A DNA stretch of 64,000 bases. It comes from Myxococcus hansupus. Its GTDB lineage: Bacteria > Myxococcota > Myxococcia > Myxococcales > Myxococcaceae. Shown here piece after piece: positions 47,294 to 55,966 of this stretch. The stretch covers positions 2,252,501 to 2,316,500 of the forward strand of contig NZ_CP012109.1 of the NCBI RefSeq assembly GCF_000280925.3. Direction: 5' to 3'. How positions within the stretch are numbered: the stretch's first letter is position 1; each line of letters opens with the position of its first letter. The position numbers and the translations under genes are program-made. The notes under the pieces are model-generated. The model saw only the letters and a program-made list of their open reading frames with translations. It had not been told where the DNA came from and made no database searches.

Positions 47294-48988
47294 CTACTGG
47301 ATGGTCCACACCACGTTGCCGACGCACCGGCCGCTGCCGTAGCAGCCTCCGCGCAGTTGCACGGTGGTGGCCGCGGTGGCGGTGTACGTCACGCGGGAAC
47401 CTCCGCCGATGCCGCACGCGTCGTCGTTCTCCGCGACTTCATCGGCGCCGACGTAGAGCCGCAGGTAGGTGTCACCCACGACGCTCGCGCCCGGCACGCC
47501 GCACGTGGCGACGGTGAGGACCTGGCCCGCGGTGAGGGCGAACTCGTGGGCGACGTAGTTGCGCATCGCGCTGTTGGTGGTGCGCGCGCGGTAGGTGAAC
47601 GTGCCCGTCTCCGGATCCGGCTCGGGCTCGGGGTCCGGGTCATTGCCACCGGTGATGGTCCAGGCGACGGAGCCCGAGCAGGTGCCAGAGGAGAAGCAGC
47701 CCGCCGCGATGATGTAGTCGCCGGTGACGGCGGCGGTGAACATGATGCTGGAGCCACGGCCACCGCAGGCGTCGTCGTTGGCGGCCACTTCCGAGCCGTA
47801 GGCGTTGCGCAGGCGCAGGTACGTGTCACCCGTGAAGTTCGCGCCCGGCAGACCGCAGGTGGCGATGGTCAGCGTCTGACCCTGCTCCAGCGCGATGGTG
47901 TAGTTGGTGGTGTTCGTCTGGGCGCTGTTGGTGGCGGTGGCGTTGTAGGTGAACGGGTTGCTCGGCGGGGCCGGGGGCGGCGGCGGCGGCGGGGGCGGCT
48001 CGGACCGACCGCACAGGCGCATGCTGCCGGCGATGGCGCAGTAGCCTTCCACGGCGGGGCGCACGTAGGTGATGTCCTCACCGCGGCAACCCGTGTCCGT
48101 GCACTGGTTCACGACGTTGCAGCTACCGCGCGCGACGTAGTCCGTCGCGCCACGCACCAGGATACCGGCGACCGTGAAGGTGTCGTTCTCGTAGACACCC
48201 GAGCCCGAGTTGCCGCCGAAGGTGTCCGTGTTGGCGACGAAGAAGTCCAGCGTGCTGGCGCGGGCGTCACGCACCCAGCCACCGTCGTCGATCTTGAACG
48301 GGACGCCGCTGCCGGAGCCGATGACGGTCACGCCGGTGTTCAGCGGAAGGGCCTCGTTGCCCGGACGGATGGGCGCGGGCTCGAAGCGCGGCGCGGCGGG
48401 ACGGTCCAGCCGGACGATGGCCCAGTCCAGGTTGCGGCCGTTCACGACACCTTCCTGGCGCGCGACGATGGCCTGGCAGGAGTAGATGTCGTCCGTCGTC
48501 ACCGTCTGCAGCCCGGTCTCCGACGTGCGGTAGAAGTTGAAGACGAAGCGCGTGCCCGCGCAGGCCGCCGCGGTCCTGAGGCAGTGGCCGGCGGTGAGCA
48601 CCAGGTCGTCATCAATGAGCGTACCCGAGCACCAGGCCGGCGTGGGGTCCTGGAGGAAGCGCTGGTCCGAGCAGAGATTGAAGTAGGACTGCAGCGTGGG
48701 CGCGTTGAAGATGACGTTGCTCGGGTCGGACGCGTCGATGTCCACCGCATCCATCAGCGCCACCGTCGACCGCTCCGCCCGCTCGCGCATCGCCGGGATC
48801 GCCGTGTACGCGTAGACATCCGTGCGGTGGTCTTCGCCGTAGATGACGTCCTGTCCGGTCGTCCCCACATCCGGAGACTTCTCGTCCGCGGACTCCATTT
48901 CGGGAGCCGGGGCACAGGCCGCGACCGACACGGAAAACAACAGTGCGCCGAACACGTTTCGGCGGAAGGGACTACGGGGGATACGCAT
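47294..48988 (-). CDS. Secreted trypsin-like serine protease with two C-terminal PPC-type domains
   Basis: 564 residues. A signal peptide with a possible lipobox (SVAAC) is followed by a trypsin (S1) domain with the full triad: His in VLTAGHCL, Asp in LDWAIVRLD, Ser in FGGNSGSGV. A Pro-rich linker of nine consecutive Pro (about residue 338) leads to two PPC-like beta domains, each ending in the motif CxxxxCxGxVxWTI (CFSSGTCSGSVAWTI; CYGSGRCVGNVVWTI). Architecture fits an exported predatory or matrix-degrading protease. A 7-bp hairpin (ACTCCAA/TTGGAGT, 49104-49125) lies about 120 bp upstream. Confidence 0.92.
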   Translation of the reverse strand: MRIPRSPFRRNVFGALLFSVSVAACAPAPEMESADEKSPDVGTTGQDVIYGEDHRTDVYAYTAIPAMRERAERSTVALMDAVDIDASDPSNVIFNAPTLQSYFNLCSDQRFLQDPTPAWCSGTLIDDDLVLTAGHCLRTAAACAGTRFVFNFYRTSETGLQTVTTDDIYSCQAIVARQEGVVNGRNLDWAIVRLDRPAAPRFEPAPIRPGNEALPLNTGVTVIGSGSGVPFKIDDGGWVRDARASTLDFFVANTDTFGGNSGSGVYENDTFTVAGILVRGATDYVARGSCNVVNQCTDTGCRGEDITYVRPAVEGYCAIAGSMRLCGRSEPPPPPPPPPAPPSNPFTYNATATNSAQTNTTNYTIALEQGQTLTIATCGLPGANFTGDTYLRLRNAYGSEVAANDDACGGRGSSIMFTAAVTGDYIIAAGCFSSGTCSGSVAWTITGGNDPDPEPEPDPETGTFTYRARTTNSAMRNYVAHEFALTAGQVLTVATCGVPGASVVGDTYLRLYVGADEVAENDDACGIGGGSRVTYTATAATTVQLRGGCYGSGRCVGNVVWTIQ

Positions 48989-50249: not shown

Positions 50250-50975
50250 ATGAGACTGCTCGACTGGACAGACCCGGACGATGACACACGCGGCTACTGG
50301 GCGACTTTCTTTCCCAGGAGCGTGAAGAAGGAAGTGATGGCTGACGCCGAAGCCAGGATCATCTCGGGCGATGATGCGGATCGCATTCTCTGCGAGATGC
50401 CCATTGCCGCACTGGACCAGGCCGCCAGGGACACGGGATACAAGCGCCTCGACGAGGCTCTGAACGACCGCAAGTTCACGGCCATGTTGCCGCTGTTCGT
50501 CGGAGACGCGGAGGCCGTGCTTCGCTTTCGCAAGCGCTGCGTCCCGAGGTGGATGCAGCTCGTCCACCGTGAGGCGAAAGGCGCGTCTTGGGACGTGTCG
50601 CGAATGCATGCGCGGCGTGCGATGAAAACGCCGCTGGGCACCTCGTCCGTCGACGACATCCGCCTTCCGAAAACGTCCCTTCATTTTCGCGTCCAGCCCG
50701 AGTCGGCGCTGGCGTCTCCCGACAAGGAACAGCACGCCCCCGTCACCGATGTCCTCGTCGTCGAGGAGCCCGCGCCACGGAGACTCTGGCGCATCGCGGT
50801 CGAGTCTGGCTCGGCCGTCGGCAACACCAGCGCCCTCATCACGTCACTGGACCTGCCGAGCGGTGCGACGTTGGACACGGTGCTTGAACAGCACGCTGCT
50901 CAGGTCGCCACGGGCGAGGACTGGCGAAGCCTGTTGGCCTGGGTTGTCAGCATGCTCTTGCTGTCGCGCACCTGA
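50250..50975 (+). CDS. Unknown protein upstream of the YcaO cluster
   Basis: 241 residues, soluble, no signal peptide. The N-terminal half is helical (ATFFPRSVKKEVMADAEARI; YKRLDEALNDRKFTAMLPLF), the C-terminal half beta-rich (DVLVVEEPAPRRLWRIAVES) with an ending of hydrophobic residues (LLAWVVSMLLLSRT). No motif recognised. It is on the same strand as, and 120 bp upstream of, a short RiPP precursor gene and could belong to that cluster, although the precursor has its own promoter. GC at third positions is a little lower than in core genes, consistent with an accessory origin. Confidence 0.6.
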   Translation: MRLLDWTDPDDDTRGYWATFFPRSVKKEVMADAEARIISGDDADRILCEMPIAALDQAARDTGYKRLDEALNDRKFTAMLPLFVGDAEAVLRFRKRCVPRWMQLVHREAKGASWDVSRMHARRAMKTPLGTSSVDDIRLPKTSLHFRVQPESALASPDKEQHAPVTDVLVVEEPAPRRLWRIAVESGSAVGNTSALITSLDLPSGATLDTVLEQHAAQVATGEDWRSLLAWVVSMLLLSRT

Positions 50976-51040
50976 TGGAGATTCCTCGCCAGCCAGGCGA
51001 AAAAGCTGAAACGTGAGACGATGCGTCATCGCGCCTGTTG

Positions 51041-51070
51041 TTGACTTGAAGTGTGGCCTGTGAAGACAAT
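51041..51070 (+). promoter_or_regulatory. Sigma-70-type promoter of the RiPP precursor gene
   Basis: TTGACT (51041-51046; five of six to the -35 consensus) and GACAAT (51065-51070; four of six to the -10) are separated by 18 bp. Transcription would start near 51077, leaving a leader of about 20 nt that contains the AGGGAGG ribosome site. This is the best -35/-10 pair noticed in the window and lies directly before the 43-codon gene. Confidence 0.6.
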
Positions 51071-51095
51071 TCGGACTCACTCAGGGAGGCCGAAC

Positions 51096-51227
51096 ATGAA
51101 GAAGCCTGCTCGTACGAAGCGCGCAAAGACTCTCAAGGTCACGGTTCGCGTTCTGAAGGGGGCTGCGCTCAAGTCGTTCGAAACCAACAGGTGCAGCTCC
51201 TCCAACATCTCCCACCTCTCGAAATAA
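51096..51227 (+). CDS. 43-residue candidate RiPP precursor peptide (YcaO substrate)
   Basis: The peptide starts MKKPARTKRAKTLKVTVRVL and ends NRCSSSNISHLSK. The first 30 residues are basic and amphipathic like a leader; the last 13 hold one Cys and five Ser, the residues a YcaO cyclodehydratase would turn into thiazoline and oxazolines. A strong AGGGAGG site six bases before the ATG and a good promoter support real expression. The YcaO gene starts 21 bp after its stop on the same strand. No double-Gly site is visible, so leader cleavage is unclear. Position, composition and signals together make the call; no homologue can be checked here. Confidence 0.75.
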   Translation: MKKPARTKRAKTLKVTVRVLKGAALKSFETNRCSSSNISHLSK

Positions 51228-51248
51228 CAGCAGCAGTCCGAGCACGAC

Positions 51249-53234
51249 ATGGGACTTCAGTCAGGTGTCGTGCTCCTCGAAATGGGCAAGGGCGTCTCCA
51301 TCCTTCAGACCCGCAAGGCGCTGATGGAGATTCGGGGCCTGCCCTTTGCCCGTCTCGTTTCCCTCCTCGAAAGCATTGGCCGTGGAGGGAAGGCCGCACT
51401 CGTTCGTGCGCTGGTGAAGGCGGGGGTCGACCCTGACAGCGCCGCTGAGCTCGGAGCACGGTTCGAAGAGGAAGAGGCATTGGGGCGTGGCGGTCCACGT
51501 TTGTGGGACGCACAAGCCCTCCGCAAAACATGCGGCATCACGGGCGGGCTTCGACTGGGCCCCCTGCGCACGGTCGACATTGCCGAGAAGGGCGAATCGC
51601 TCATCCAACTGAGCGCCACCCGATGGCGCCGCGCTGGCCGTGTCGGATGCCTCTCCTGTGGCCTGCTGTGGGAGGTCCAGAGCGCGGATTCGCCCGCGGA
51701 GGCTGCCGCGGTCGCGAATGCGCTCCCACGCCGCGCGGTGATTGCCCTGGGCGCCGCCGATGTGAAGGCCCTCCGGGCCGTCATGAAGCATCCCTGCTTC
51801 GATACGGAGGGTTGGGCCGAGGGCACGTATGGGCAGGCCCTCGCTCGCCGCACGCGGCCGAGGCCGTCGGCGGGATGCGAGTGCTCCTCGTCCTTGCGCG
51901 CGGTGAAACACATCGGGAGGCTGGAAGGCTCACGGATGGCAGGTGCCGCGCTGGGCCGCGTGGGCGTCGCGACAAAAGAGTCCACCGTGCGTGGCAAGCG
52001 GGGAGCGCCTTCCATCGTGACCTTGGTCTGGGGCGCGGCCACGCTGCGTGCTCGAAGGCGAGGACGTCCCGTGGTGTCAGGCCATCACCAAGCCCAGGTG
52101 GGGGTCGGTAGCTCCCTGGAGGAGCGGCGATTGACGGCTCGCGCGGAGGCCATCGAGCGCGCCTCGTCCCTTCTTCGTGTGCCTGATGTCCTCGCGACGC
52201 CTGCGCGTGCCCTCGAGCGCCCCTTCCTGCCCCTGCGTCAGTGGGACCTCTACACGCCGGCGCAGTACGCGAGCCCCGGGTTTCCCTACGCGCCTGTGAC
52301 GCAGGACACGCCGTTGGATTGGGTCATGGCCACGGACGCGAAGACGGGTGAGCAATTGCTCGTTCCGGCCGCCTTCACGACGTCTGAACAGCTCGTGGAG
52401 CCGCGCTTCTTGTGCGCTTCGTCGAATGGCGTCGCGACGCATACGAGCCATGAAGCCGCGCTGCGGTCCGCGCTCTTGGAGGTGGTCGAGCGAGACGCAC
52501 TTCAGCTCGCCTGGTACCGCGGTGAAGGCGCGAGGCGCATCGACCCGGCCACGCTCGATGTCGACGCCGCGGAGTCGCGCCATTTCGAGGAGGCGGGCTG
52601 GGGGCTCCACTTCGCGTACCTGCCCGGCCGTGCGGGCCTCCACGTCGTCGCGCTCATCGCGGTGGCGACAGGGGAGGGCATGTTTCCCCAGGGCGGGACG
52701 TTGCTCACGGCGGCGGCGGCGGGTGACCCTGCGGTGGCCGTGAAACGCGCGCTCCGCGAAATGCGGATGGTGACGGAGGCGCTGACGCTTCAACGCGAGC
52801 TGTCGATTGATTTCGAGGCGCTCCGGCGGCCCCCGGTCCTGGAGAGCACCTGGCTCAGTGATTCGCTTCTCGACATCACGTTGCTCTACTTGAATCCGGC
52901 GATGCGCAGCGCTGTCGACCTGCTCCTGCAGGGACCTCCCGTGGCACTTCCCCGTGTTCGTGTCTCCGACACGGCGGAGGACCTCGTTTCGAGGTTTCAC
53001 CAGAGTGGGCTCCGGACCCTGGTCATTGAGCTCACGCTGGATGCTGCCGCGCCGTTCCGGACCTGCCAGGCACTGGTGCTTGGAACGCAGCCCATGGCGT
53101 TCTGTCCGGGCTTGTTGCGCCTCGGGAGCGGATTGCTGCCGCGTCGCCTCCCGCCGAAGAATCCCCAGCTCCCCACATCACCTCTCAAGCTCCGGCGAGG
53201 GCAGTTGAACCCCTACGTGCTTCCGTTGGCGTGA
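51249..53234 (+). CDS. YcaO cyclodehydratase fused to an N-terminal RRE-like domain
   Basis: 661 residues. Residues 1-80 resemble an RRE/ocin-ThiF-like winged helix (SGVVLLEMGKGVSILQTRKA, then FARLVSLLESIGRGGKAALV). A middle part has CLSC (about 135-138) and CEC (about 210-212), possible zinc ligands. The YcaO domain covers about 275-661 with ATP-binding motifs RAEAIERASSLLR, AALRSALLEVVERDALQLAW and VKRALREMRMVTE. The C-terminus NPYVLPLA is a degenerate PxPxP. It would activate backbone amides of the adjacent 43-residue peptide with ATP and form azolines. Start at 51249 has only a weak ribosome site; coupling to the precursor is likely. Confidence 0.87.
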   Translation: MGLQSGVVLLEMGKGVSILQTRKALMEIRGLPFARLVSLLESIGRGGKAALVRALVKAGVDPDSAAELGARFEEEEALGRGGPRLWDAQALRKTCGITGGLRLGPLRTVDIAEKGESLIQLSATRWRRAGRVGCLSCGLLWEVQSADSPAEAAAVANALPRRAVIALGAADVKALRAVMKHPCFDTEGWAEGTYGQALARRTRPRPSAGCECSSSLRAVKHIGRLEGSRMAGAALGRVGVATKESTVRGKRGAPSIVTLVWGAATLRARRRGRPVVSGHHQAQVGVGSSLEERRLTARAEAIERASSLLRVPDVLATPARALERPFLPLRQWDLYTPAQYASPGFPYAPVTQDTPLDWVMATDAKTGEQLLVPAAFTTSEQLVEPRFLCASSNGVATHTSHEAALRSALLEVVERDALQLAWYRGEGARRIDPATLDVDAAESRHFEEAGWGLHFAYLPGRAGLHVVALIAVATGEGMFPQGGTLLTAAAAGDPAVAVKRALREMRMVTEALTLQRELSIDFEALRRPPVLESTWLSDSLLDITLLYLNPAMRSAVDLLLQGPPVALPRVRVSDTAEDLVSRFHQSGLRTLVIELTLDAAAPFRTCQALVLGTQPMAFCPGLLRLGSGLLPRRLPPKNPQLPTSPLKLRRGQLNPYVLPLA

Positions 53235-53247
53235 CGTGACGGTTCGA

Positions 53248-54627
53248 ATGCGCGAACGCACCATCATCCTGGGCGCCGGCCTCGCGGGGCTGGCGGCGGC
53301 ATACGAGCTGGTCCTCGCGGGACAGGATGTCATCGTTCTCGAGGCGCGCTCTCGCGTCGGTGGCCGTGTTTTGACTCTGCGAGAGCCGTTCTCCGATGGG
53401 ATGTATGCAGAGGCCGGTGGAAAGTATGTCCTCAGCGGGCACTCGGCGCTTCTGGAGCATGCGAAGACCTTCGGCCTGGAGCTCGACTCGCTGCCAGTCC
53501 CTCACATGTCGGCCCTGCGGCCCTTTCACCTTCAGGGAAGGCGCATCCTGGCTCCCTTCGGTGATGACTCGGGCTTGCCGTACATTCTGCGGGCGGATGA
53601 ACGACAGCTCGGCCTGGCGGGCCTCTACCGGCGATACCTGTTCCCCCTGCTGGAGGCCGTGGGCGATCCGCTCCACCCCTCCTGGCCTGGGCCCGATGCG
53701 AGCGAACTCGATGGCCTGACGCTGCGTGAAGCACTCGCGGAGCGTGGAGCCTCTTCGGGCGCCATCGATGTCTTGAGTCTGGGGCGGTTCGACCTCGTGG
53801 GCGACGGCATCGACGCGAGTTCGGCGCTCGGGGTTCTTCGTCGGGAGTTGCTGACCGTCGGTAGAGGGGGCGTGAGCGCCTACACCTTGAGGGGAGGGAG
53901 TGAGCGGCTTCCCTTGGCTCTGGCGGGAGCGCTGGGTGACAGGGTTCGGTTCGGGTGGGCCGCGATGCGCATCGAGCAGACCCCGGGGACTGTCAGCGTG
54001 TGTTGCCGTGGCGACTCGGGTGAGCACAGGACGTTCACCGCGGAGCGGCTGGTGTGTGCCATTCCGTTCTCGGTCCTGCGAGGCATTGAAGGGGGCTCCA
54101 CCTTCTCGGCGGAGAAGCTGCGGGCGATTCGTGAACTCGAGCACACGTCCGTCGTGCGCACTTTCATCCAGTGTCGGCGCCGGCTCTGGTCGGAGTGGGG
54201 GTGGACGGAGGATTGGCTGACGGACCTCCCCATGATGCACGTCATGGATGCGGCACCGACGCAGCCGCAGGCCGCTGGCATCCTCGAAGCGTACATGGCG
54301 GGCCCGAGGGCCCGCGCCGCGAGTCTTCTCTCCGATGAGGCGCGCATCGCCATGGTGACGGACGGAATGAGCCAGGTCGCTTCGGGGCTCTCCTCCGAAG
54401 TGCTTCGTGGCGCCTCGTACGCGTGGGACCTGGACCCGTGGGCCCGGGGCGCCTTCGCGTGGTTCCGGCCGAGGCAACTCACGCAGTGGGGAAGGGCGCT
54501 CGCCATCCGAGAGGGCCGCATTCACTTCGCGGGAGACCAAACCTCTCCCATGCCCGGATGGATGGAGGGAGCGCTCCGGTCCGGTCGGCGCGCCGCCCTC
54601 GAAATTCTCTCCGGAGCACTTGCGTAA
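53248..54627 (+). CDS. FAD-dependent amine oxidase-like enzyme of the RiPP cluster
   Basis: 459 residues. The N-terminal Rossmann fold binds FAD (IILGAGLAGLAAAYELVLAG, then VLEARSRVGGRVLTL); the C-terminus has the amine-oxidase seal HFAGDQTSPMPGWMEGALRS. Members include monoamine oxidases, phytoene desaturases and tryptophan oxidases. In this cluster it could dehydrogenate azolines to azoles, replacing the usual FMN-dependent dehydrogenase, or oxidise a side chain; this is inference. The ATG at 53248 is used; a GTG at 53236, two bases after the YcaO stop, is an alternative. Tight spacing shows cotranscription with YcaO. Confidence 0.87.
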   Translation: MRERTIILGAGLAGLAAAYELVLAGQDVIVLEARSRVGGRVLTLREPFSDGMYAEAGGKYVLSGHSALLEHAKTFGLELDSLPVPHMSALRPFHLQGRRILAPFGDDSGLPYILRADERQLGLAGLYRRYLFPLLEAVGDPLHPSWPGPDASELDGLTLREALAERGASSGAIDVLSLGRFDLVGDGIDASSALGVLRRELLTVGRGGVSAYTLRGGSERLPLALAGALGDRVRFGWAAMRIEQTPGTVSVCCRGDSGEHRTFTAERLVCAIPFSVLRGIEGGSTFSAEKLRAIRELEHTSVVRTFIQCRRRLWSEWGWTEDWLTDLPMMHVMDAAPTQPQAAGILEAYMAGPRARAASLLSDEARIAMVTDGMSQVASGLSSEVLRGASYAWDLDPWARGAFAWFRPRQLTQWGRALAIREGRIHFAGDQTSPMPGWMEGALRSGRRAALEILSGALA

Positions 54628-54808
54628 GTTCGCTCCGGGGACCCTTCATCGCATTACCGGGGAATGCTGCACGGGAGCGTCCTGTAGACCACGGGAGAGG
54701 CGGCACCTCACTCAGCTCCTCAGCCGCCCCCGAGGGCTGAATGGGGCCATGCCGTTCCACGTCATCGCTACGAGCGACGCGCGCGCGTAGACATGCTACC
54801 CCTGGGCC

Positions 54809-55966
54809 ATGTCCCGCGATCCCCGACCCGACGTCCCGCCCCAGGGGCCGCTCCCCTCCGAAGCTTCGTCCGAGACGCCGTCGGATGCCGCCTTCACCTG
54901 GCACTCCGAGAGCGCGGTCCCCGCGCCTGCCCGCTTGTCCCCTGTGAATGACCGGCTCAGCGCGGACACGGCGCTCAAGCGGGTGAAGCGAGGCGAGTTC
55001 CTGCTTTACTCTGGAGACTTTCACAACGCGAAGCAGCTCATCGGCGCGCTGAGCCGACGGCTGCCGCAGCCGGCGAAGGCGCGCTCGCCGCTGGAGGCCT
55101 TCCGTGCGGAGCGCCGGGCACGGCAGCTCGAACACGAGACGCTGTCGCGCATCGTGGTGTCCCTTGACCGCGATTACAGGCTCGGGCTCGCACGGGCCCC
55201 GGACACGTCCCTGACGTGTCTGCAGGTCTGGGGCGCGCCAACGATGGACACCACCGTGGTCCCGCTCAAGCAGCTCCTCGGCATGCTCGGTGCGGCGGAG
55301 TGGCGGCGCAAGGGGCTCGCCGTTCCTGGCCTCACGGGTCTGCTTCACCCTCACTACGGCGTCTACCTTCCGACGCGCACGGATTATGTGGAGCTGCTGC
55401 TGTCGCTCACGGAGGTGAAGGGCAAGCGGGTGTTCGACATCGGCACGGGGACCGGCGTGCTCTCGTTCCTCCTCCTCCAGCGCGGCGCGGCCTCCGTGCA
55501 GGCGACCGACTGTGATTCGCGCGCCGTGGCCTGTTCCCGAGAGAACGCGGTGCAGCTCGGACTTGGAAAGCGCTTCCAGGTGGCCGAGGCCGACTTGTTT
55601 CCGAAGGGCACGGCGGACATCGTGGTGTGCAATCCCCCTTGGATTCCCGAACCGCCCAAGAACCGGGTGGACCGCGCGGTGTTCGATGAGGACAGCGAGT
55701 TCCTGAAGCGCTTTCTCGAAGGGCTCTCTGCTTCGCTCGCGCCCGGAGGCGTGGGACTGCTGCTCCTGTCGGACCTCGCGGTGCTGCTGGGGCTGCGTCC
55801 ACAGGGGTGGCTCGAAGCGCAGTTCGAGCGTTGCGGCCTCGCGGTGCAGTGGGCGCGGTCGACTCCGGCGCGGCACTCGAAGGCGAAGGACAAGTCGGAC
55901 CCGCTGCACATGGCGCGCTCTCGCGAGAGCACCACGCTCTACTGTTTGAAGCCGGTGAGTCCGTAG
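54809..55966 (+). CDS. SAM-dependent methyltransferase (N5-Gln/HemK-like motif)
   Basis: 385 residues. The catalytic domain (about 190-340) has motif I VFDIGTGTGVLSFLLLQRG and motif IV IVVCNPPWIPEP; NPPW at the NPPY position marks amide- or amine-nitrogen methyltransferases. The N-terminal 180 residues are partly disordered, then helical (LKRVKRGEFLLYSGDFHNAK). It lies 181 bp after the flavoenzyme on the same strand and probably is a tailoring enzyme of the YcaO product, although N-methylation of other targets is possible. The gap before it has a small TCAGCC/GGCTGA hairpin but no clear terminator. Confidence 0.82.
   Translation: MSRDPRPDVPPQGPLPSEASSETPSDAAFTWHSESAVPAPARLSPVNDRLSADTALKRVKRGEFLLYSGDFHNAKQLIGALSRRLPQPAKARSPLEAFRAERRARQLEHETLSRIVVSLDRDYRLGLARAPDTSLTCLQVWGAPTMDTTVVPLKQLLGMLGAAEWRRKGLAVPGLTGLLHPHYGVYLPTRTDYVELLLSLTEVKGKRVFDIGTGTGVLSFLLLQRGAASVQATDCDSRAVACSRENAVQLGLGKRFQVAEADLFPKGTADIVVCNPPWIPEPPKNRVDRAVFDEDSEFLKRFLEGLSASLAPGGVGLLLLSDLAVLLGLRPQGWLEAQFERCGLAVQWARSTPARHSKAKDKSDPLHMARSRESTTLYCLKPVSP

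Follow-up and report, generated by a model that had tools for sequence, protein, structure and literature searches.

In a 64,000-nucleotide stretch of the Myxococcus hansupus genome (contig NZ_CP012109.1, positions 2,252,501 to 2,316,500, forward strand; hereafter the window), a short open reading frame (ORF) precedes genes for a YcaO protein and a flavin amine-oxidase-like protein (FAO). This arrangement raises the question whether the three genes encode a pathway for a ribosomally synthesised and post-translationally modified peptide (RiPP) and, if so, which chemistry its enzymes perform. The genome is a single contig of 9,490,432 bases. Comparative analysis indicated that a conserved, RiPP-like three-gene cassette is real; the chemistry, which was read from sequence, is a proposal. 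According to this proposal, precursor, YcaO cyclodehydratase and flavin oxidase would make up a minimal RiPP cassette, in which the YcaO protein, using ATP, would cyclodehydrate the third residue of each triplet in the precursor core, after which FAO would oxidise the rings to azoles in place of an FMN-dependent SagB-type dehydrogenase. Because the three genes include no protease or transporter, any removal of the leader or export of the product would depend on other proteins of the host.

Conservation and genomic context of the cassette

The initial annotation had described a 43-codon ORF with an ideal ribosome-binding site, a gap of 21 bp, a YcaO ORF and, beside the latter, a flavin amine oxidase gene. 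All of these were found (Table 1), and the deduced peptide consists of MKKPARTKRAKTLKVTVRVLKGAALKSFET followed by the C-terminal NRCSSSNISHLSK. That annotation was to be abandoned if no short peptide was conserved beside homologous YcaO genes; such a peptide was present at 8/8 complete orthologues.

Homologues were searched in 195 Myxococcota genomes, with scoring confined to the six top first-look candidates of each genome, and in 27 genomes of the genus. Full-length YcaO proteins occurred in 8 of the 195 genomes, window included (seven Myxococcus and one Archangium, G088), and in 7 of the 27 genus genomes. The six Myxococcus copies from outside the window were 76-79% identical to the window protein and the Archangium protein 67%, while the remaining matches in the genus were partial or covered the YcaO domain only (26-40% identity). 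Named carriers among the relatives are Myxococcus sp. CA023, M. xanthus AM003 and Archangium lansinium. Outside the genus, YcaO homologues of similar score were found in G183 and G038. All eight complete YcaO orthologues had a precursor gene (40, 42 or 43 codons) directly upstream and an FAO gene directly downstream, in constant order. In 9 of the 10 loci that have the YcaO start, from two genera, the precursor gene lay 16-21 bp upstream of it; the tenth (G013), a deletion remnant, lacks the precursor. This fixed position argues against a chance ORF.

The other two proteins were searched as well. Among 145 genomes of the order, a precursor-only profile matched 10 at an expect value (E) of at most 0.1. 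Nine of these, at E 4.1e-16 or better, represented the eight cassette genomes and G018, and the tenth was weak (G148, E 0.002) and covered profile positions 2-19 within a long frame. FAO proteins of at least 70% identity were encoded in 8 of 96 genomes of the family, namely the eight with a cassette, and the next relatives did not exceed 40%. A genome-collection scan with two narrow peptide patterns matched 25 stretches, of which 3 were relatives, all from Myxococcus or Archangium. None of the 13 plasmid records that matched covered 80% of the query, and the 10 matches listed lie within residues 276-618; a phage search gave no match.

The cassette occupies at least three chromosomal settings: that of the window, G012, G022, G023, G024 and G025, which share flanking families; that of G017 and G018; and that of G088. 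Since gene order was kept while the flanks changed across these settings, the three genes stay together. The ratio of non-synonymous to synonymous substitution rates (dN/dS) over six pairs was 0.24-0.30 for the YcaO gene and 0.19-0.32 for the FAO gene, and both genes are under purifying selection. Two natural losses of the cassette were identified. In G013 (L028, 9418-9644), an internal deletion left approximately 36-37 YcaO residues (92% identity) and a 46-residue FAO stretch, and no precursor was found at this remnant locus. In G018 (L029, 8074-9564), the precursor gene is intact and the YcaO gene stops after approximately 35 residues (80% identity), with similarity extending through a stop to residue 93 at 45% identity; Mutator-family transposase fragments follow, and the genome gave no FAO match at E <= 1e-25. 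The G018 and G017 peptides differ at one residue.

The short ORF shows the traits by which a precursor is usually recognised, namely its position, its size, a variable C-terminus rich in Cys, Ser and Thr and a constant association with a YcaO gene, and we consider it highly probable that the cassette is a RiPP pathway. It is very improbable that the short ORF instead encodes a conserved regulatory or basic protein, with the enzymes acting on another protein. Such a role would be in keeping with conservation that reaches the DNA level (see below) and with the intact peptide gene that G018 keeps despite its cut YcaO gene and the lack of an FAO match, but the single-residue difference from the G017 peptide fits recent decay of that locus.

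A putative triplet-repeat core

The leader, approximately residues 1-30, is basic, and 22 of its 30 positions were identical in 9/9 precursors. After an invariant Glu-Thr, six distinct cores were found: NRC SSS NIS HLS K (window), NVS NIS HIS K, NVS SIS HIS K, TVS SIS HIS K, GVS HVS SIS NYS K and NTC TIT HTS KK. All of them can be read as three or four x-x-[C/S/T] triplets followed by K or, in Archangium, KK, so that a C-terminal Lys is present in 9/9 precursors. Cys, Ser or Thr occupied phase 3 in 20/20 positions of the six cores, as compared to 6/20 for phase 1 and 3/20 for phase 2. Phase 3 was filled variously by each of the three residues, core lengths ahead of the Lys tail varied by whole triplets, and Thr30, immediately ahead of the core and invariant in 9/9 precursors, continues the phase. 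These observations are a strong suggestion, not proof, of a triplet-repeat core. A leader with a C-terminal core rich in Cys, Ser and Thr is also what would be predicted for a precursor of a linear azol(in)e-containing peptide or thiazole/oxazole-modified microcin (LAP/TOMM). Cys is not conserved, and the rings would be mainly oxazolines because four of the six distinct cores contain none.

The precursor gene begins with 26 coding bases (51096-51121), including three consecutive T-ending codons, that were identical in 9/9 loci from two genera. This identity suggests a constraint on the DNA or RNA itself at the 5' coding end.

The YcaO protein and the flavoprotein

The YcaO domain (PF02624, E 4.8e-44) largely retained the ATP/Mg-site motifs, as in LAP/TOMM enzymes. 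Residues 1-284, ahead of this domain, had a dN/dS of 0.34-0.39, as compared to 0.15-0.21 for the rest of the protein (three pairs), and contain four invariant Cys residues (C134xxC137 and C210xC212), a pattern which we take to be reminiscent of the zinc site of cyclodehydratases. It is probable that the YcaO protein forms oxazoline, methyloxazoline or thiazoline rings at a spacing of three residues.

FAO matched the complete PF01593 profile (positions 1-443 of 443, E 3.6e-55), including the FAD-binding motif. Its nearest solved relatives by profile were L-amino acid oxidases (LAAOs), with which it aligned over its full length (ancestral LAAO 9qs1, E 2e-58), followed by monoamine oxidase MAO-B. 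Two replacements, each in 8/8 FAOs, set it apart from these enzymes: Tyr64 takes the place of the carboxylate-site Arg of LAAOs, and Arg308 that of the usual Lys of the PF01593 family. The family Lys is presumably located near flavin N5, and the LAAO Arg that aligns with Tyr64 presumably binds the substrate carboxylate. At the position of Arg308, 21 non-orthologous relatives had Lys (17), Arg (2) or Gln (2). Both replacements make an ordinary amino-acid oxidase less likely, which leaves oxidation of azolines or of a peptide amine as the main options.

To our knowledge, all known azoline-to-azole oxidations in RiPP biosynthesis use SagB/McbC-type FMN dehydrogenases. The cassette does not include a SagB-type enzyme, and the corresponding model (TIGR03605) was therefore searched in 11 genomes. 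It had no match above its cut-off in any of the seven cassette-bearing Myxococcus genomes, window genome included; six of these had no match at E <= 0.01 and G025 had one sub-threshold match. For lack of a SagB above cut-off, FAO is the only candidate ring oxidase identifiable in the Myxococcus hosts. According to PMC4603692, a sizeable percentage of TOMM clusters carry a gene for an FMN-dependent dehydrogenase, for which oxidation of select azolines has been demonstrated; both this SagB-type enzyme and the E1-like or RiPP recognition element (RRE)-containing C protein, separate or fused, are described there as common, not universal. The same paper states that at least two YcaO proteins are believed to work without a C protein.

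If the cassette is a RiPP pathway and its YcaO protein a cyclodehydratase, the chances that FAO oxidises the azoline rings to azoles are even. The complete chain of RiPP pathway, azoline formation by YcaO and ring oxidation by FAO, as read from the sequences, is put forward as the best of the explanations considered, though a tentative one.

Evidence against the proposed chemistry and alternative explanations

Several observations weigh against this chain of reactions. In the YcaO protein, the Gln of the RALxExxQ motif is replaced by Met507, which is invariant in 8/8 orthologues. Azoline-forming YcaO proteins have a C-terminal PxPxP motif, and the C-terminus here, NPYVLPLA or NPYLLPLA, provides PxxxP. 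The match to the SagD-type cyclodehydratase model TIGR03604 reached 149.1 bits, below the curated cut-off of 219.25.

These same features are what would be expected if the YcaO protein makes another backbone modification (amidine, thioamide or ATP-driven cleavage) and FAO tailors its product, which we regard as quite unlikely. YcaO enzymes of different chemistry are known: PMC10885120 describes MusD as a YcaO peptidase, and PMC8442711 an amidine-containing RiPP made with a YcaO enzyme. However, no TfuA was found among the eight window proteins scanned around the YcaO gene, the core varies at a fixed phase among Cys, Ser and Thr, the residues used by YcaO cyclodehydratases, and the invariant four-Cys pattern recalls cyclodehydratase partners.

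The N-terminal region provides a further difficulty. The initial annotation had named the protein an RRE-YcaO fusion; its YcaO domain was recovered, while the RRE label found no confirmation by sequence or model. Residues 1-284 had no Pfam or NCBIfam match at E <= 0.1, and hhalign of this region against 15 other Myxococcota cyclodehydratase N-termini performed no better than an FAO-alignment control. A profile search of the YcaO protein against solved structures gave no match at E <= 0.001. The AlphaFold2 model of the whole protein had a mean predicted local distance difference test score (pLDDT) of 31; that of residues 1-100 had a pLDDT of 58, with helices 33-43, 48-57 and 62-74 as its confident part. 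For the latter model, the top three Foldseek matches were MarR/ArsR winged helices at E 1.9-2.4, none of them significant. VIA-align 2 gave a best Z of 4.9 and 82 chains with Z >= 2, the best 50 of which included no RRE or cyclodehydratase. Neither an RRE nor an E1-like partner was thus demonstrable by family, profile or model searches.

On the side of the substrate, between 3 and 68% of the shuffles of a single core were fully phased in one frame or another, and the sequences compared are related; the triplet phasing consequently rests on repetition across related lineages. The precursor dN/dS of 0.17-0.76 over six pairs indicated partial constraint only.

For the oxidation step, most PF01593 enzymes oxidise amines or amino acids, and we know of no azoline oxidase from this family. 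In the Archangium genome, TIGR03605 had one match above cut-off, located 3.2 Mb from the cassette by contig coordinates and near another YcaO gene. Furthermore, the conserved C-terminal Lys offers FAO an alternative substrate. The same cassette might then leave its azolines unoxidised, with FAO acting on a peptide amine, likeliest the side chain or alpha carbon of that Lys, to give an aldehyde, allysine or a cyclised product. Invariance of the Lys and the family and nearest solved relatives of FAO speak for such a reaction; Tyr64 and Arg308 speak against it, although the latter is not decisive because Arg is found at that position in the LAAO-like relatives from G026 and G004, too. On this evidence, we judge oxidation of the peptide amine to be unlikely.

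A role of FAO apart from the azolines was also considered, in which it would make a separate small molecule, or act on the N-terminal amine after leader removal, and be merely co-regulated with the precursor and YcaO genes. The three best FAO relatives from outside the cassettes (G026, G111 and G004, 37-40% identity) had no YcaO-protein match in the surrounding stretches examined, as would suit an independent enzyme, but FAO orthologues of at least 70% identity directly followed the YcaO gene in 8/8 cassettes, and an independent role is very unlikely.

Returning to ring oxidation by FAO, the cassette would then represent a RiPP family of its own: YcaO would set azolines at every third residue, and an FAD enzyme of the monoamine-oxidase/LAAO type with a Lys-to-Arg replacement would aromatise them. 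This would be an independent evolutionary solution to azoline oxidation, in a self-contained three-gene cassette that occurs in different chromosomal settings; we consider this possible but rather doubtful.

Comparison with known YcaO systems

In our reading, the cassette would work like a LAP/TOMM pathway. As in those pathways, the YcaO protein adjoins a short precursor with a C-terminal core rich in Cys, Ser and Thr and has an N-terminal extension fused to the YcaO domain. In contrast to them, the cassette has an amine-oxidase-type flavoprotein instead of a SagB-type dehydrogenase, has no recognisable ThiF/E1-like partner and combines a triplet-like core with a YcaO protein below the TIGR03604 cut-off. 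Since this cut-off was not reached, PxPxP is incomplete and no partner domain was demonstrable, the cassette is not filed as a proven LAP/TOMM member.

Within the genus, the closest YcaO paralogues, with 30-33% identity across the YcaO domain, belong to TOMM-type clusters in G004 (L030), G007 (L031) and G001 (L032). Unlike the cassette, these clusters carry nitroreductase/SagB-type genes beside the YcaO gene. Their ThiF-family genes were Pfam-confirmed in L030, below cut-off in L032 and recognised by sequence likeness only in L031. The cluster in L030 (8992-12505) contains SagB-type and ThiF-type genes, a YcaO gene and a small ORF with many Cys residues at regular intervals.

Apart from the cassette gene, a single YcaO match at E <= 0.001 was obtained in the window genome (G000:C1:5795546; L001, G000:C1:5794046-5798038). 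This second YcaO gene adjoins TfuA (PF07812, 1.8e-43) and belongs to a separate, thioamidation-type system; the cassette shares the YcaO family with it but had no TfuA match in the scan mentioned above. In streptamidine-type clusters, as described in PMC8442711, a YcaO gene (amiD) is clustered with a flavin-dependent dehydrogenase gene (amiE), a likeness to the cassette in gene content; unlike the latter, they add a hydrolase and transporters. The earlier remark that the gene combination matched no known RiPP class was supported within the open-access literature searched, where no YcaO-PF01593 pair was described.

Putative expression signals and neighbouring genes

Features of the cassette are listed in Table 1. 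In the promoter-like element, the TTGACT hexamer was invariant in 9/9 aligned loci and the second hexamer variable; GGAGG of the ribosome-binding site was likewise kept in 9/9. For FAO, the ATG is a likelier start than the GTG because the first residue of the orthologues corresponds to M5 of the ORF read from the GTG.

Table 1. Positions of cassette features in the window.
Feature	Position	Strand	Basis
Promoter-like element TTGACT-18-GACAAT	51041..51070	+	Alignment of upstream regions; putative function, from conservation alone
Ribosome-binding site AGGGAGG of the precursor gene	51083..51089	+	Sequence; six bases ahead of the ATG
Precursor peptide gene, 43 amino acids	51096..51227	+	ORF and counterparts in 8 other genomes
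Predicted core NRC-SSS-NIS-HLS-K (triplets ending in C/S/T, C-terminal Lys)	51186..51224	+	Comparison of 6 distinct cores; putative boundary
Inverted repeat GCACGAC...GTCGTGC around the YcaO start codon	51241..51274	+	Alignment and predicted folds; putative function
YcaO protein, 661 amino acids (N-terminal region 1-284, YcaO domain 285-610)	51249..53234	+	ORF, Pfam, alignment
FAO, PF01593	53248..54627 (alternative GTG start 53236)	+	Pfam, orthologue starts, structure-profile search

The 7-bp arms of the inverted repeat, GCACGAC in the intergenic region and GTCGTGC in the early coding region, were identical in 9/9 aligned loci and paired around the YcaO start codon in 9/9 predicted folds (z-scores -0.45 to -3.58). 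The arms do not vary and hence show no covariation; two loci, G025 and G018, lack one A-U pair at the start codon. Possibly, this hairpin exerts translational control that holds enzyme synthesis below precursor synthesis.

A methyltransferase gene (54809-55966) had been taken as a fourth gene responsible for methyl tailoring. It was rejected as a member of the unit: matches at E <= 1e-40 occurred in 19/27 genus genomes, 13 of these 19 without a complete cassette, and none in cassette-bearing G017, while in G022, G023 and G024 the gene lies approximately 5-6 kb from FAO. As the methyltransferase gene is an independent neighbour, methyl tailoring is unsupported. Overall, the observation behind the initial annotation was partly confirmed as real, and its interpretation was partly supported.

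The ORF at 50250-50975 was rejected as well, an adjoining close copy at the cassette locus being limited to the window and G013 (69%). It had some match in 19/27 genus genomes, the others at no more than 40%, and sub-threshold Pfam/NCBIfam matches only.

A gene for a trypsin-like protease with pre-peptidase C-terminal domains lies near the cassette (window 47294-48988, - strand). The same protease is encoded near the deleted G013 cassette (93% identity); processing of the peptide by this protease is without support. In another Myxococcota genome (L066, 6785-9350), a YcaO fusion precedes a small ORF that has a KTLKLQVKKLE-like leader and possibly represents an unrelated RiPP.

Implications

With three genes and a substrate of 40-43 residues, the proposed pathway is directly testable by co-expression, and the naturally varying number of triplets provides ready-made substrates. 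If confirmed by experiments, the pairing of a YcaO enzyme with an amine-oxidase-like partner in these predatory soil bacteria would be an unusual combination. It would represent either a second, unrelated flavoenzyme family for azoline oxidation or a novel oxidation of an amine in a peptide modified by YcaO, and would offer peptide engineers a further tool and genome mining a new handle.

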